From contig JADHOR010000002.1 of assembly GCA_016778895.1 (NCBI GenBank), positions 62,001 through 126,000 on the forward strand: a DNA stretch of 64,000 bases. Direction: 5' to 3'. Origin of the DNA: Candidatus Puniceispirillum sp. GTDB lineage: Bacteria; Pseudomonadota; Alphaproteobacteria; Puniceispirillales; Puniceispirillaceae. Positions 11,404 through 43,343 of this stretch are shown piece by piece (within the stretch, counting starts at the first letter, position 1; every line of letters begins with the position of its first letter). Made by a program: the position numbers and the translations under genes. Under the pieces are notes generated by a model that had not been told where the DNA came from, searched no databases, and saw only the letters and a list, made by a program, of their open reading frames with translations.

Positions 11404-11460
11404 ATAACGCCTGATTATTAGGCGCGGTTCAAGACAAGGTACCGTAGGAGGGTGCTTATA

Positions 11461-12714
11461 ATGTCAGTTGATATTCATGTTCCAACACTTGGCGAGTCTG
11501 TGAGCGATGCAACGGTCGCGCGCTGGATTAAAAAGGCTGGCGATGCTGTCGCCGCGGATGAACCGATCGTTGAGCTTGAAACCGACAAGGTGACGTTGGA
11601 AGTGCCGTCACCAGTTGTGGGTAAACTTGCTGAGATTGTTGCGCCGGAAGGTGAAGCGGTTGAGGTTGGGGCGCTTTTGGGGCGGGTTGAAGAAGGCGCC
11701 GCCGGCGCAAAACCAGCGCCCAATGCAGCAAAAGAAACTGCCACTGTAAAAGTAGCTGCGCCTGTTGCACCGGCCGCACCTGTCGCACCGGCAGTCGCGC
11801 GTGACACATCCGATCTGTCACCAGCGGTTCGCCGTCTGGTTGAGGAACATAATCTAAATCCGACAACTATCCCGGCAACGGGTGTTGGTGGCCGTTTAAC
11901 CAAGGCCGATGTTCTGGCCGCAATTAGCCGGCCGCAAACAGCGCCAAGCGCGATGCCCAACGCAACCGCCGTTGCGCCAGTCGCACCGCGTGTTCCACCG
12001 CGCGCCGTTGATGCAGCGCGCGAAGAACGTGTGCGCATGTCAAAATTACGCCAGGTGATTGCGTCACGGCTAAAGTCGGCGCAAAATACTGCGGCGATGC
12101 TGACCACCTTTAATGAGGTGGATATGTCGGCGCTGATGAAATTGCGCGCTGATTATAAAGATGCTTTTGAAGTGACGCATGAGGTCCGGCTTGGGTTCAT
12201 GGGTGTATTTGTTCAGGCGGTTATTCAGGCGCTTCGTGAATTTCCGGCGGTAAATGCCGAAATTGACGGCACGGATATCGTCTATAAGAACTATTATAAT
12301 ATCGGCGTTGCGGTCGGCACGCCGCAGGGGCTTGTTGTTCCGGTAATCAAGGATGCTGGCGCGATGAGTTTGGTCGAGACTGAACGCGCCATTTCAGATT
12401 TTGGCCTGCGCGCCCGTGATGGCAAGATTGCGCCCGATGAAATGGCTGGCGGTACCTTTACCATCTCCAATGGCGGGGTTTATGGCTCGATGATGTCGAC
12501 GCCAATTCTGAACCCTCCGCAAAGTGGCATTTTAGGCATGCATAAAATCGAAAAACGCGCCGTTGTCATTGATGATCAGATTGTGATTCGTCCGATGATG
12601 TATTTGGCGTTATCATACGATCACAGGATTATTGATGGCCGTGAGGCGGTATCGTTTCTTGCAAGGGTTAAGGCAATGGTCGAGGATCCCCGCCGCTTGC
12701 TGGTTGGCGTCTAA
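11461..12714 (+). CDS. sucB: 2-oxoglutarate dehydrogenase E2 (dihydrolipoyl succinyltransferase)
   Basis: Core of the 2-oxoglutarate dehydrogenase complex, moving succinyl groups from lipoyl-lysine to CoA. In 417 residues: a single lipoyl domain with the acceptor Lys43 in ETDKVTLEV, an Ala/Pro-rich linker (about 80-115), and a peripheral subunit-binding domain ([29 protein letters not shown]). A second Ala/Pro linker leads to the catalytic domain ending with [11 protein letters not shown], which holds the active His and Asp. The ATG at 11461 sits eight bases after a GGAGGG. An in-frame GTG three codons earlier lies inside that ribosome site and is rejected. Confidence 0.97.
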
Positions 12715-26292: not shown

Positions 26293-27834
26293 TCAGGTTT
26301 TTGGCAATAACAGACTAGTGCCGGTCATTGATACCGGTTTAGGGATTCCTATCATCGCCAGTAAACTTGGCGCAATATCAGCCAGCCGACCATTGCCAAG
26401 TTTGGTATTTGCGTGACCGTTTACCAGAATTAACGGCACCAGATTGGTAGTGTGGGCGGTATGCGGTGATGCGGCATCGTCATCCCACATAATTTCACAA
26501 TTGCCATGATCTGCGGTCAGTAGCATCTGTCCATCGGCAGTGATAAGCGCCTCGACCAGCTGGCCAACGCAGTGATCGACCGTCTCAACCGCATGAATGG
26601 CGGCATCCAGATTACCGGTATGACCAACCATGTCGGGATTGGCAAAATTGATAATCAACAGATCATGCGATTTGGTGTTAAGGCTGTTCAGAGCGGTTTG
26701 CAGCACGTCATGCGCACTCATTTCAGGCTTTAAATCATAGGTTGCAACTCGGGGCGAGGCGATCATTTCTCTCTCTTCGCCGGGCTGTAGCGCCTCTTCG
26801 CCGCCATTGAAAAAAAAAGTCACATGTGGATATTTTTCGGTTTCGGCAAGTCGTAACTGACGTTTACCAGCCCGCGCTACAACCTCGCCTAGCGTGTCCT
26901 TTAAATCCAATGGTGGGTAGAGGGTGACCATATGCCTATCCAGTGACTTTGAATAGCTGGTCATGCCTGCCATGGCGGCAAGCCGAAGCGGCTGGGTAGC
27001 ACAGCCGGTCGTATCAGGCTGGCAAAAGCAATTTAGAATCTGGCGCGCCCGATCAGCGCGGAAATTCATCATCACCACGCCATCACCATCCCTCATGCCC
27101 TGATAATTACCAATTACTGTCGGTGTGATGAATTCATCGCCCTCGTCACGCGCATAGGCGGCGTCTAGCGCCGCTAGGGCGTCGACGGCATAGATAGGGG
27201 CTCTGGCACCCGCAATAGCGTCATAGGCGGCTTGTGTGCGCTCCCAGCGGTTATCCCGATCCATGGCGAAATAGCGGCCAATGATGTTTGCCATCATGGC
27301 GCCTGACGGCAATGCGGCCAGAAAGCGCGGTAAATCTTGCTTGGCCGCTTGTGGCAGCGTGTCGCGGCCATCGGTAAAGCCATGAACGGCCACCGCTACA
27401 CCAGCATTAACCAGCCCTCTGACCACTGCCAGAAAATGGTCTTGATGCGCATGCACTCCGCCCGGCGACAATAACCCCATTACATGGACAGTGCCGCCGG
27501 ATGCCGTGATCTGTGCTGCCAGTGCGCCAAGCGCGGGATGGCCGGCAAGCGATCCGTCGTTAACGGCGGCGTTGATGCGTGGCAAATCCTGCATTACCAC
27601 CCGACCGGCACCGATATTCATATGGCCAACCTCGGAATTACCAACCTGTCCATCGGGCAGGCCAACATCGGCGCCCGAAGCCGCAAGCAGACTGTGCGGC
27701 TGAGCGGTAACTAGCGCATCAAATACCGGTGTCTCGGCAAGCGCGACAGCATTATGTTCAACCGCGGTACGGTGACCCCAGCCATCCATAATACAAAGGA
27801 CAACGGGGCCGTTTGAAGGGTGATAATTTGCCAT
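26293..27834 (-). CDS. gpmI: 2,3-bisphosphoglycerate-independent phosphoglycerate mutase
   Basis: Interconverts 3- and 2-phosphoglycerate in glycolysis/gluconeogenesis using two Mn ions. 513 residues of the alkaline-phosphatase superfamily, with the metal-site CIMDGWG, the phosphoserine nucleophile Ser66 in QVGNSEVGHMNIGAGR, HGFTDGRDTLP, and C-terminal LLTADHGNCE and PHTAHTTNLVPL metal ligands. Length is normal. The ribosome site is weak. Confidence 0.96.
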   Translation of the reverse strand: MANYHPSNGPVVLCIMDGWGHRTAVEHNAVALAETPVFDALVTAQPHSLLAASGADVGLPDGQVGNSEVGHMNIGAGRVVMQDLPRINAAVNDGSLAGHPALGALAAQITASGGTVHVMGLLSPGGVHAHQDHFLAVVRGLVNAGVAVAVHGFTDGRDTLPQAAKQDLPRFLAALPSGAMMANIIGRYFAMDRDNRWERTQAAYDAIAGARAPIYAVDALAALDAAYARDEGDEFITPTVIGNYQGMRDGDGVVMMNFRADRARQILNCFCQPDTTGCATQPLRLAAMAGMTSYSKSLDRHMVTLYPPLDLKDTLGEVVARAGKRQLRLAETEKYPHVTFFFNGGEEALQPGEEREMIASPRVATYDLKPEMSAHDVLQTALNSLNTKSHDLLIINFANPDMVGHTGNLDAAIHAVETVDHCVGQLVEALITADGQMLLTADHGNCEIMWDDDAASPHTAHTTNLVPLILVNGHANTKLGNGRLADIAPSLLAMIGIPKPVSMTGTSLLLPKT

Positions 27835-27915
27835 GACGATCTTATAAGCGGGGCATAGAGTGATGTACAGATAAACTACGCTCCTAATTGAGGCGCTGCA
27901 AATTATCGTGTGAGG

Positions 27916-28374
27916 TTAATCGGCACGGTGATAGGGATGATTTACTAATATAGAGCTGGCCCGATATAGCTGTTCGGCAAGCATGGCGCGAAACAGCATA
28001 TGCGGCCATGTTGCACGGCCAAAGGCAATGGTGCGGTTGGCTCTTTGCCGCAATTTATCGGCGTGGCCATCAGCACCGCCAATGGCAAAACAGGCCGCGG
28101 AGAACCCGCCATTGCGCCAGTGATCAATCAGCGCCGCCAGCTCTTCAGATGAGATATCCTTGCCGCGCGGATCAAGCACGGCCAACGCCGCGCCATCCGG
28201 TATTGCGCGTAATAGCCGACCCCCCTCATCATCGGTACGTTTTTGACCCGGATAGAGCTTTGACTCAACTTCGATCAGGCTACCGCCCTGTGGCAAACGC
28301 GATAGCCAGCCTTGTGTCAGGCTGTTCTCAGGGGACGCTCGGCCTTTGCCAACGGCGAGGATAAGTAATTGCAT
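27916..28374 (-). CDS. rlmH: 23S rRNA (pseudouridine1915-N3)-methyltransferase
   Basis: SPOUT methyltransferase acting on helix 69 of 23S rRNA. 152 residues with LILAVGKG at the start, LDPRGKDISSEELA, FAIGGADGH (the SAM-binding knot) and the C-terminal HMLFRAMLAEQLYRASSILVNHPYHR. The ATG at 28374 is preferred over the TTG one codon upstream. It follows rsfS, a conserved pairing. Confidence 0.95.
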   Translation of the reverse strand: MQLLILAVGKGRASPENSLTQGWLSRLPQGGSLIEVESKLYPGQKRTDDEGGRLLRAIPDGAALAVLDPRGKDISSEELAALIDHWRNGGFSAACFAIGGADGHADKLRQRANRTIAFGRATWPHMLFRAMLAEQLYRASSILVNHPYHRAD

Positions 28375-28417: not shown

Positions 28418-28798
28418 CTAGGCGTCGCCGCCAACTTTGACAATTTCAGCTGGCGTATCATCAACCCACATCCGCTCCAGCCCATAGAATTCACGCACTT
28501 CTGGGCGGAAGATATGAACGATCACATCATTTGCATCCAGCAACACCCAATCGGCTTGCCGCAACCCCTCAAGGCCAAGAATATCGACCTTCTGTTGTTT
28601 TAGCTTAAATTCAAGATGTTCTGCCATGGCTGCAACTTGTCGGGATGAAGCACCTGACGCAACGACCATGTAATCGGCCATTGCGGACTTGCCTTGTAAT
28701 GGGATTGTCAGGATGTTTTCGGCTTTGTCGTCGTCAAGAGAGCTAGTGATCAAGCTTAGAATTTGGTCTGCATTTAAGGCAGTTTGCGCTTTAGAAAT
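28418..28798 (-). CDS. rsfS: ribosomal silencing factor RsfS, probable AUU start
   Basis: Binds ribosomal protein uL14 and blocks subunit joining when nutrients are short. The conserved core (SLDDDKAENILTIPLQGKS, ADYMVVASGASSRQVAAMAEHL, DWVLLDANDVIVHIFRPEVREFYGLERMW) is complete. No ATG, GTG or TTG gives a full-length N-terminus. A TTG at 28753 would remove the first family helix and has no ribosome site. Upstream the frame stays open through SKAQTALNADQILSLI to an ATT at 28796-28798, six bases after a perfect AGGAG. I therefore take AUU as the start, giving 126 residues, the normal family length. The alternative is a translation start at TTG with a shortened protein. Confidence 0.8.
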   Translation of the reverse strand: MSKAQTALNADQILSLITSSLDDDKAENILTIPLQGKSAMADYMVVASGASSRQVAAMAEHLEFKLKQQKVDILGLEGLRQADWVLLDANDVIVHIFRPEVREFYGLERMWVDDTPAEIVKVGGDA

Positions 28799-28852
28799 GG
28801 GTATCTCCTGTCAAAATGTTCAAGCCTCTTCTCTTACAGGCTTCGGGCGGAT

Positions 28853-29512
28853 TTAGGCATTTGCGCGCTGCGCTTGCTGCCGGATTTCCGTGGCCGAAGC
28901 CGCATGACGTTTTCCAGCTATAAAACACCAGCCCGGTAGCTTTAAATGTCTTGTCGTAATCGCGCGGCGCATTTCCCCAACCTGATACCGCCGCCCTAGC
29001 AACCACCGACCGGACGCTATAGCCCGTAGAGAATAGCTTGGACGGTCGATTACGGCAATGGGTAGCAGACGAATCAAGCCCTTATGCCGGTACCAGCGCG
29101 AAAACTGATCCAGATTATCCGCCCCCATGATCCAGACCAGGCGTGCAAGTGGCATAGTTTTTTTTATATAAATCAATGTATTATATGTGTAATTCTTTGG
29201 TAGGGCTGATTCGGGTGCCAGCACCCGCAAAAACGGATAGCCGCTAGCGATATCGCGGGCATAGGCCAGTCTTGTGGCAAGTGAGGCCATTCCGGCTGAA
29301 CTTTTTAGCGGATTCTGCGGGGTGACCAGCCACCATATCTGATCAAGCCCCAATGCCCGCCGCGCCTTTAGAGCGACATGAATATGACCCTCATGCGCCG
29401 GGTTGAACGAGCCCCCTACAAGACCAATTTTCAGGCGTGACCGGCTGTGAAACAGCGCTGGCACCTGGTGCGTATAACTAGCTGCGTGTTTGGCCATCGC
29501 CCCGAACAACAT
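28853..29512 (-). CDS. nadD: nicotinate-nucleotide adenylyltransferase
   Basis: Joins nicotinate mononucleotide and ATP to give deamido-NAD. 219 residues with the nucleotidyltransferase motif GLVGGSFNPAHEGHIHVAL, WIMGADNLDQFSRW, and a C-terminal SATEIRQQ in place of the usual SSTxIR. The start overlaps the end of proA by about 35 bases; a second ATG at 29497 would shorten the overlap. The first 27 residues precede the fold and look dispensable. Confidence 0.92.
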   Translation of the reverse strand: MLFGAMAKHAASYTHQVPALFHSRSRLKIGLVGGSFNPAHEGHIHVALKARRALGLDQIWWLVTPQNPLKSSAGMASLATRLAYARDIASGYPFLRVLAPESALPKNYTYNTLIYIKKTMPLARLVWIMGADNLDQFSRWYRHKGLIRLLPIAVIDRPSYSLRAIASGRWLLGRRYQVGEMRRAITTRHLKLPGWCFIAGKRHAASATEIRQQAQRANA

Positions 29513-41898: not shown

Positions 41899-43173
41899 CT
41901 AGCCTGATAAATTGGCGAAATCGGGGATTGTTTCATCATTGATTATGTCGGCAATTGGCCGCGCCCCGCGTAGCAGGTGTGCGCTGCCATCAAGCACCAA
42001 AATTTCTGCGGCAGGTGAGCGGCTGTTATAGCCGGACGACATAACGGCACCGTAAGCACCAGCTGACATGATGGCAAGCCCGTCGCCGGCACTAAGATCA
42101 GGCATATCCCGGTTTAGTCCCAGATAATCGCCAGTTTCGCAAACTGGTCCAACAATATCGGCCTTGCCGGTTGAGGGCTTTGGCGCGGCAAGTGTCCAGA
42201 TCGGGTGATGCGACTCATAAAGCGTCGGCCTTAAAAGATCATTCATCGCCGCATCAACAATCACAAAGCGCTTATTATCGCCCTGCTTAACATAGATCAC
42301 TCGGGTGATCAGCGCGCCATTGTTGGCAATGATCGACCGACCCGGCTCAAATCCGAGGGTAAAGCCCTTATCCTTGAAAAGCCTTTCGACCATCGCTCCG
42401 TATGCGGTAAAATCAGTCGGTCCAGCCAACTCATAATCAACTCCAACACCGCCGCCAAGGTCAAGGTTAGGCAATGGCATTCCAGCATCGCGAAGCTCTA
42501 TAGCCAGCGCCAGAAGCGCCGAATAGGCTGCCTCGTACGGCGCCAGATTGCGGATCTGCGAGCCGATATGCACGGCCAGACCGGCCGGCCGGATGTGCGC
42601 ATCTTCGGTCAGTCTCCGGTAAAGATCAGCAGCTTCGCGCTGGTCTGTTGAAATACCAAATTTCGTGTCACGCTGACCCGTTGAAATTTTTGCATGGGTG
42701 CCCGGATTCACATCAACATTGACACGCAACGCCACTGGGGCAACCACTCCCATCTCAGCGGCAATCGCACTGATGGCGGCCACTTCAGGGGCGGATTCTG
42801 CATTGATCTGGCCAATGCCATCGGCAAGCGCCTGCCGGATGTCATCAGCGGTTTTGCCAACGCCGGAAAACACTACATCGGCCGGATTGATACCGGCTGC
42901 CTTGGCCCGTGCCAATTCGCCTGCCGACACGATATCCATACCACCGCCAAGTCGTCCGATAAGAGCCAGAACACCGAGCGCCGAATTGGCCTTCATCGCA
43001 AAATGTACCTTGCCGGCGACTGGTGCAACAGCTGCCTGAAACTGGATAAAAGCCTCGGTTATGCCGGCTCCCGAATAAACATAGACTGGCGAACCATGGG
43101 TCGCGGCAATATAGGTAAGCGGAAGCCCGTCAACGCATAGTTGCTGGTTGTTATCACGGTGAAAAGCGCACAT
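41899..43173 (-). CDS. lysA: diaminopimelate decarboxylase
   Basis: Last step of lysine synthesis, PLP-dependent. 424 residues with the Schiff-base Lys61 in HFAMKANS, GGGMDIVSAGEL, VHIGSQI, LDLGGGVGVDY, EPGRSI and the C-terminal CETGDYLG with the active-site Cys, plus YNSRSPAAEILV. It follows the small lipoprotein and argH on the same strand, a common alphaproteobacterial trio. Confidence 0.97.
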   Translation of the reverse strand: MCAFHRDNNQQLCVDGLPLTYIAATHGSPVYVYSGAGITEAFIQFQAAVAPVAGKVHFAMKANSALGVLALIGRLGGGMDIVSAGELARAKAAGINPADVVFSGVGKTADDIRQALADGIGQINAESAPEVAAISAIAAEMGVVAPVALRVNVDVNPGTHAKISTGQRDTKFGISTDQREAADLYRRLTEDAHIRPAGLAVHIGSQIRNLAPYEAAYSALLALAIELRDAGMPLPNLDLGGGVGVDYELAGPTDFTAYGAMVERLFKDKGFTLGFEPGRSIIANNGALITRVIYVKQGDNKRFVIVDAAMNDLLRPTLYESHHPIWTLAAPKPSTGKADIVGPVCETGDYLGLNRDMPDLSAGDGLAIMSAGAYGAVMSSGYNSRSPAAEILVLDGSAHLLRGARPIADIINDETIPDFANLSG

Positions 43174-43205
43174 GATTACGATGGCTCCTAAAGCTGTGGC
43201 AAAGC

Positions 43206-43343
43206 CTAGTTGGCGGGGGTTTCTGTCTGGGTTGCGGCAGGGATTTGGGATGGCCGATAAGGATCGCCGCGCTTGCCGCAGGCACTAAGGCCAAGCGTCA
43301 GCAGCAGGCTGATCAGACTGCCAAGAATGAATGTGCGTCGCAT
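43206..43343 (-). CDS. lptM: small LptM-like lipoprotein
   Basis: Only 45 residues: a signal helix ending LGLSAC with the lipid-modified Cys22, followed by GKRGDPYRPSQ, close to the CGxKGPLYxP pattern of LptM (formerly YifL). LptM assists maturation of the LPS translocon LptD in enterobacteria. A longer frame runs upstream but overlaps argH; the ATG at 43343 follows AAAGGAGCCGCT. Position between argH and lysA is typical for the family. Confidence 0.85.
   Translation of the reverse strand: MRRTFILGSLISLLLTLGLSACGKRGDPYRPSQIPAATQTETPAN

Follow-up and report, generated by a model that had tools for sequence, protein, structure and literature searches.

A conserved AUU-type start codon of rsfS in Alphaproteobacteria suggests a possible link between IF3 supply and RsfS synthesis

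RsfS proteins bind uL14 on the 50S subunit and block subunit joining. In the window, by which we mean the whole stretch of 64,000 nucleotides analysed here, the gene for such a protein raises the question of which codon starts its translation, and of what a start outside ATG, GTG and TTG might mean for its control. The frame (Table 1) scored 110.2 bits against PF02410 (E 6.2e-32, cut-off 21.6) and 116 bits against TIGR00090 (E 6.9e-34, cut-off 56.9), and the neighbourhood nadD-rsfS-rlmH on the minus strand is the one found in the RsfS (iojap/YbeB) family. By its sequence the product is RsfS, a predicted 50S anti-association factor.

On the minus strand the 5' end of the gene reads CAG GAG ATA CCC ATT TCT AAA GCG. 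The initial annotation had proposed the ATT, six bases past an AGGAG, as the start codon, and a reading of the sequence found both the coordinates and the spacing to be right. It had further held that the N-terminal helix of RsfS is encoded upstream of any ATG, GTG or TTG; this we could confirm, the first canonical codon, and the sole one close by, being a TTG inside the first RsfS helix. The codon at Shine-Dalgarno (SD) spacing thus lies outside the canonical set, and no canonical alternative backed by an SD is present in frame.

Table 1. Features of the rsfS locus, in positions of the window
Feature	Position	Strand	Remark
rsfS CDS from the AUU start	28418..28798	-	126 residues + stop
ATT (AUU) start codon of rsfS	28796..28798	-	conserved as AUN in relatives
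AGGAG Shine-Dalgarno (SD) of rsfS	28805..28809	-	6 nt before ATT
In-frame TGA closing the rsfS frame upstream	28811..28813	-	
TTG, first in-frame canonical codon of rsfS	28751..28753	-	no SD, not conserved
nadD, upstream neighbour of rsfS	28853..29512	-	stop ends 54 nt before ATT
rlmH, downstream neighbour of rsfS	27916..28374	-	ATG from sequence; ORF list has TTG one codon earlier

Translation from the downstream TTG would give a shorter RsfS, and the codon has in its favour that it is the first canonical one in frame. It has no SD, however, and of the 29 family loci just 17 have TTG in this column, the others having TTA, CTC, CTG, CTA, GTG or ATA. The RsfS chain 3ups, whose structure is solved, aligns with the query from residue 7, which is encoded well ahead of this codon. 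The second-best solved relative is the PDB chain 28ye_G (152 residues, 'Ribosome silencing factor S'), whose N-terminus may reveal the native RsfS start of another species.

The pattern of substitutions also speaks against the TTG. Between the ATT and the TTG (codons 2-15), seven distinct loci of the genus show 73/56/100 differences at codon positions 1/2/3, a coding bias (p 0.0016), unlike the 27 nt upstream of the ATT (61/71/36; p 6e-6 for the contrast); these p-values serve as guides only, since the locus pairs are not independent. Taking all 14 loci of the genus, with 76 pairs within the distance limit, the differences amount to 301/173/993 downstream of the ATT; for the 27 bases upstream they amount to 163/219/112, and a 2-base indel is also found there. 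We therefore regard a start at the TTG as extremely unlikely. The second residue from the ATT is S in 17 of 29 loci, T in 8, and A, V, P and R in one each, so that S, T, A, P or V is found in 28 of the 29.

To see how far the codon is kept we searched 61 genomes of the order, our own and 60 relatives. Named relatives at 94% identity belong to Candidatus Puniceispirillum, which places the window within or close to that SAR116 genus. A match to rsfS was found in 58, and all 58 5' ends were read, by eye and by script. The start column holds ATT in 41, ATC in 4, ATA in 4 and ATG in 9. An SD match of 4 bases or more accompanies each of the 49 AUN sites and is missing from all nine sites with ATG. 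In six loci (L016, L018, L019, L024, L027 and L029) the ATT or ATA comes immediately after an ATC, which leaves the exact AUN codon ambiguous there. A sequencing error, T for G, was considered for the ATT and ruled out, because AUN is common to 49 genomes. ATG at the ATT column, which would have told against the initial annotation, occurs in none of the genomes that keep the SD; the nine ATG genomes are exactly one family, f4, and the loci read in families f1, f2 and f3 all have AUN. Two f4 genomes (L075 and L076), with rsfS at ATG and without an SD, nevertheless have infC at ATA, and we take the f4 state to be an apparent reversal.

The ATT, ATC and ATA codons are synonymous, and in some relatives a long open frame extends upstream, so one could take the codon for an isoleucine inside a protein that begins further upstream. 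Against this, in 24 of 48 rsfS frames of the order no ATG, GTG or TTG lies between the upstream in-frame stop and the point 8 codons before the conserved core. The upstream stretch also carries the 2-nt indel and shows no coding bias, and in other families the SD-spaced position is taken by CTG. We give an internal isoleucine hardly any credence. Restart of ribosomes coupled from nadD, with the codon itself mattering little, is suggested by nadD lying directly upstream on the same strand; the distance from the nadD stop to the rsfS start, however, varies from -5 to 124 nt in 27 of 28 family loci (the 28th value, -381 for L027, appears to reflect a faulty alignment of nadD), and with coupling the codon class would not be expected to be conserved. 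Such coupling seems quite improbable to us. The conservation of AUN with its SD, the switch in coding pattern and the frames lacking a canonical start all support the AUU that was initially annotated, and from these sequence comparisons the position of the rsfS start at AUU appears well supported.

We next consider the class as a whole. Among 241 genomes searched 227 had an rsfS match, and the sample was drawn from 150 of these, one locus per family for 89 families; as it consists of the matches listed, low-scoring rsfS genes are under-sampled. The test was blind to the codon: an SD of at least 5 bases was sought upstream of the core, and the codons at SD spacing were counted in and out of frame. 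Such an SD was present in 51 of the 89 listed loci and absent in 38. In frame, ATT, ATC, ATA or CTG (hereafter near-cognate) made up 36 of 102 SD-spaced codons and canonical codons 5, as against 5 near-cognates of 204 out of frame among the same listed matches (Fisher 9e-15, a value that leaves the kinship among families in place). Independently of any SD, 19 of the 89 listed frames have no ATG, GTG or TTG before the core, as have 24 of 71 named rsfS frames, a set that overlaps the order-level one.

Called locus by locus, the 88 listed class loci gave 33 near-cognate, 6 canonical and 10 other starts, with 39 lacking a strong SD. The 71 named loci of the overlapping set gave 44, 2 and 2, with 23 lacking a strong SD. 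When the SD rule was relaxed to at least 4 bases, 53 of the 89 listed loci were near-cognate (ATA 22, CTG 14, ATT 10 and ATC 7), though the relaxed rule takes in chance codons, and the 19 frames without a canonical codon are therefore the safer floor. The rest of the 89 comprised 6 with a canonical codon behind an SD, 24 with a canonical codon and no SD, and 6 with neither; the first two groups, like the ATG of f4, indicate that the near-cognate trait is dispensable.

Among named genera, Nisaea, Inquilinus and BAL199 have ATA, and Pontivivens and Pseudolabrys have CTG. Rubricella has CTG behind an SD plus an SD-backed ATG closer to the core, and in the Sneathiella loci TTG and ATC are adjacent behind one SD. 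In several lineages (L087, L096, L101, L224, L247 and L248) CTG replaces AUN at the SD-spaced position, and the N-termini there run about 28-32 codons before the core compared with 15. A record titled Mycobacterium sp. KBS0706 (L243) is nearly identical in its rsfS start region to Inquilinus limosus (L242), and its name looks wrong.

On a rough RsfS tree of 81 loci the start-codon label had to change 33 times. The protein is short and the resolution low, and the changes forced by well-supported branches are minima: 6 for ATT, 7 for ATA, 3 for CTG and 4 for ATC. It seems that the rsfS start swaps repeatedly among ATT, ATA, ATC and CTG, as if free within this class of codons.

The same test showed no in-frame enrichment of near-cognates for nadD (4/66 against 10/132 out of frame) or rlmH (2/58 against 2/116), although both are weak positive controls because few of these genes have a strong SD; rplT and infC, described below, served alongside them. 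In rsfS from outside the Alphaproteobacteria (40 loci, 18 with a strong SD) no enrichment was found either, with 2/36 in frame and 4/72 out of frame.

AUN codons might also be read as ordinary starts in these bacteria, through a changed initiator tRNA or a lax IF3. The window offers 55 gene frames chosen by codon usage. By a coarse tally, 30 of these have a canonical start with an SD, 22 a canonical start without one, and 3 have no SD-supported canonical start; after inspection rsfS is the sole remaining frame of the three. Eight of the 55, rsfS included, have AUN or CUG behind an SD of at least 5 bases. In three of the other seven (11422, 36294 and 41899) the near-cognate lies directly beside a canonical codon, and in three (33615, 48222 and 57417) it lies downstream of one. 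At 11422-12714 (+) and 41899-43284 (-) ATA or ATC is followed by ATG at SD spacing, and the ATG is probably the start. In gpmI (26293-27915) a CTG lies behind an SD upstream of the first ATG. This candidate was rejected: among 30 family loci the two nearest relatives lack the SD, and six others have a stop between CTG and ATG, so the gpmI CTG looks like chance. In the class, rplT has ATG in all five SD-supported loci (8 of 30 loci could be placed). In view of the window tally and rplT, we consider it most improbable that AUN is an ordinary start here. As regards pairing of the SD with the anti-SD of 16S rRNA, the 16S end was found in one of six genomes (G037), which is not the genome of the window; the family search for 16S rRNA gave no match in five genomes, three of which, besides G037, are single-contig relatives of 99-100% completeness, and rRNA therefore seems to be missing or left out there.

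The standard case of a conserved non-canonical start is infC, and few such bacterial genes are known. In the genome of the window infC (C49:47122-47616 and upstream) starts with an ATA that follows a GGAG and is immediately preceded by an in-frame TAA. The gene is present in 55 of the 61 order genomes, and ATA was found in all 31 loci read, our own among them. Read by eye in 30 class genomes, infC has AUN in 28 (ATA 20, ATC 8), and the remaining two gave no clear start; by script AUN was found in 22 of 25 class genomes with a strong SD. As infC has AUN across order and class, IF3 and RsfS share a start-codon class. The match may still be coincidence, because infC also has AUN in three genomes where rsfS is canonical (G203, G111 and G209).

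What this sharing might mean can be approached from the literature, which we cite here from excerpts of the papers. Non-canonical starts are repressed by IF3, whose own gene infC is autoregulated (PMC5472188). When IF3 was raised in a reconstituted assay, less full-length product was made for AUU read by a CAU anticodon (PMC10158994). Loss of RimM in E. coli (delta-rimM) raises the levels of IF3 and of RsfS, which both keep the subunits apart; according to the same excerpt, deletion of rsfS in that strain left the delay no shorter (PMC13246957). Given the assay and the delta-rimM findings, IF3 most likely also reads the rsfS start, and RsfS output would then respond to the IF3 level.

We propose that the strong SD would hold the start of rsfS translation on AUU, and that IF3 would destabilise initiation complexes there, as it does on the AUN of infC. 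With plentiful IF3, RsfS would be made slowly; with free IF3 short relative to 30S, its synthesis would be faster. The same codon check would then govern both anti-association factors, that of the 30S (IF3) and that of the 50S (RsfS). The circumstances, namely the ATA of the genome's own infC and the swapping of rsfS codons among AUU, AUC, AUA and CUG, appear to favour such initiation-factor-sensitive control. We lean towards the view that RsfS, like IF3, is made from an IF3-discriminated start, here AUU, and that its output therefore follows IF3 supply.

The main rival is that the AUU is real but merely keeps RsfS at an unchanging low level, as published for the AUU of E. coli pcnB, with no signal from IF3. 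An AUN start can be plain down-tuning, as S. aureus reporters with AUU or AUA suggest: in the available part of that study they gave about 10% of the AUG output in poor medium, and in rich medium this share rose to as much as 30% with ccpN and modestly with citZ, while cvfC1 showed no rise (PMC13009471). Cells with too much of an anti-association factor would plausibly grow less well. Constant low expression fits the sequence data about equally well, apart from the combination of a strong SD with a codon of this class. For a constant low level, however, UUG, GUG or a weak SD would do, and what is kept is a strong SD together with an IF3-discriminated codon that swaps within its own set; this is only suggestive, and we hold constant low expression to be possible but rather unlikely. 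Returning to control by IF3, we speculate further, and only tentatively, that in much of the Alphaproteobacteria IF3 and RsfS are both made from IF3-discriminated starts, the IF3:30S ratio setting RsfS and parking 50S subunits when IF3 is short; for this wider claim we would put the chances somewhat below even.

If control by IF3 is true, ribosome silencing would be linked to the supply of an initiation factor, through a class-wide translational circuit missed by gene finders limited to ATG, GTG and TTG. The N-termini of RsfS would probably prove misannotated in many Alphaproteobacteria. The rsfS gene would be a second translation-factor gene of the infC type, present in dozens of families and a ready test of IF3 regulating in trans. 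Our literature search found no report of a non-canonical rsfS start; ribosome profiling of Caulobacter gave 0.7% CTG and 0.25% other near-cognate starts, according to the excerpt available, and the gene list in its supplement may include rsfS (PMC4117421).

Conserved non-canonical starts as such are already known from infC, pcnB, sigR, ccpN and cvfC1 (PMC5472188, PMC1780047 and PMC13009471, as far as the excerpts go); new here are the gene, rsfS, and the unusual breadth. In E. coli K-12 the same gene (ybeB), likewise beside rlmH, is annotated with TTG and so also has a weak start, UUG being termed a minor start codon in the excerpt of PMC10917681, where rsfS translation is described as unaffected by polyamines. 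The E. coli UUG is nevertheless canonical, and cobC lies between rsfS and nadD there. The AUU of E. coli pcnB is described as a translational limitation of one gene (PMC1780047, in part); the rsfS AUU would resemble it in limiting a single gene, but the rsfS trait spans much of a class and its codon varies among AUU, AUA, AUC and CUG. In Streptomyces, sigR starts with GTC in 32 of 34 species and with GTT in two, and is, like rsfS, a regulatory gene with a conserved non-canonical start and a strong RBS; the codons differ, and repression by IF3 is reported as demonstrated for sigR (PMC5472188, in part), whereas for rsfS it is inferred. The S. aureus genes ccpN (AUA) and cvfC1 (AUU) share with rsfS a conserved AUN and an extended SD; they were found by start mapping, they are other genes in another phylum, and the four sites described in the accessible text do not include rsfS (PMC13009471). 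The closest likeness is to infC, with which rsfS has in common a strong SD, an AUN start, a function as translation-factor gene and a conserved codon class. Whereas infC is under feedback from the protein that it encodes, rsfS would be an additional target, regulated in trans.
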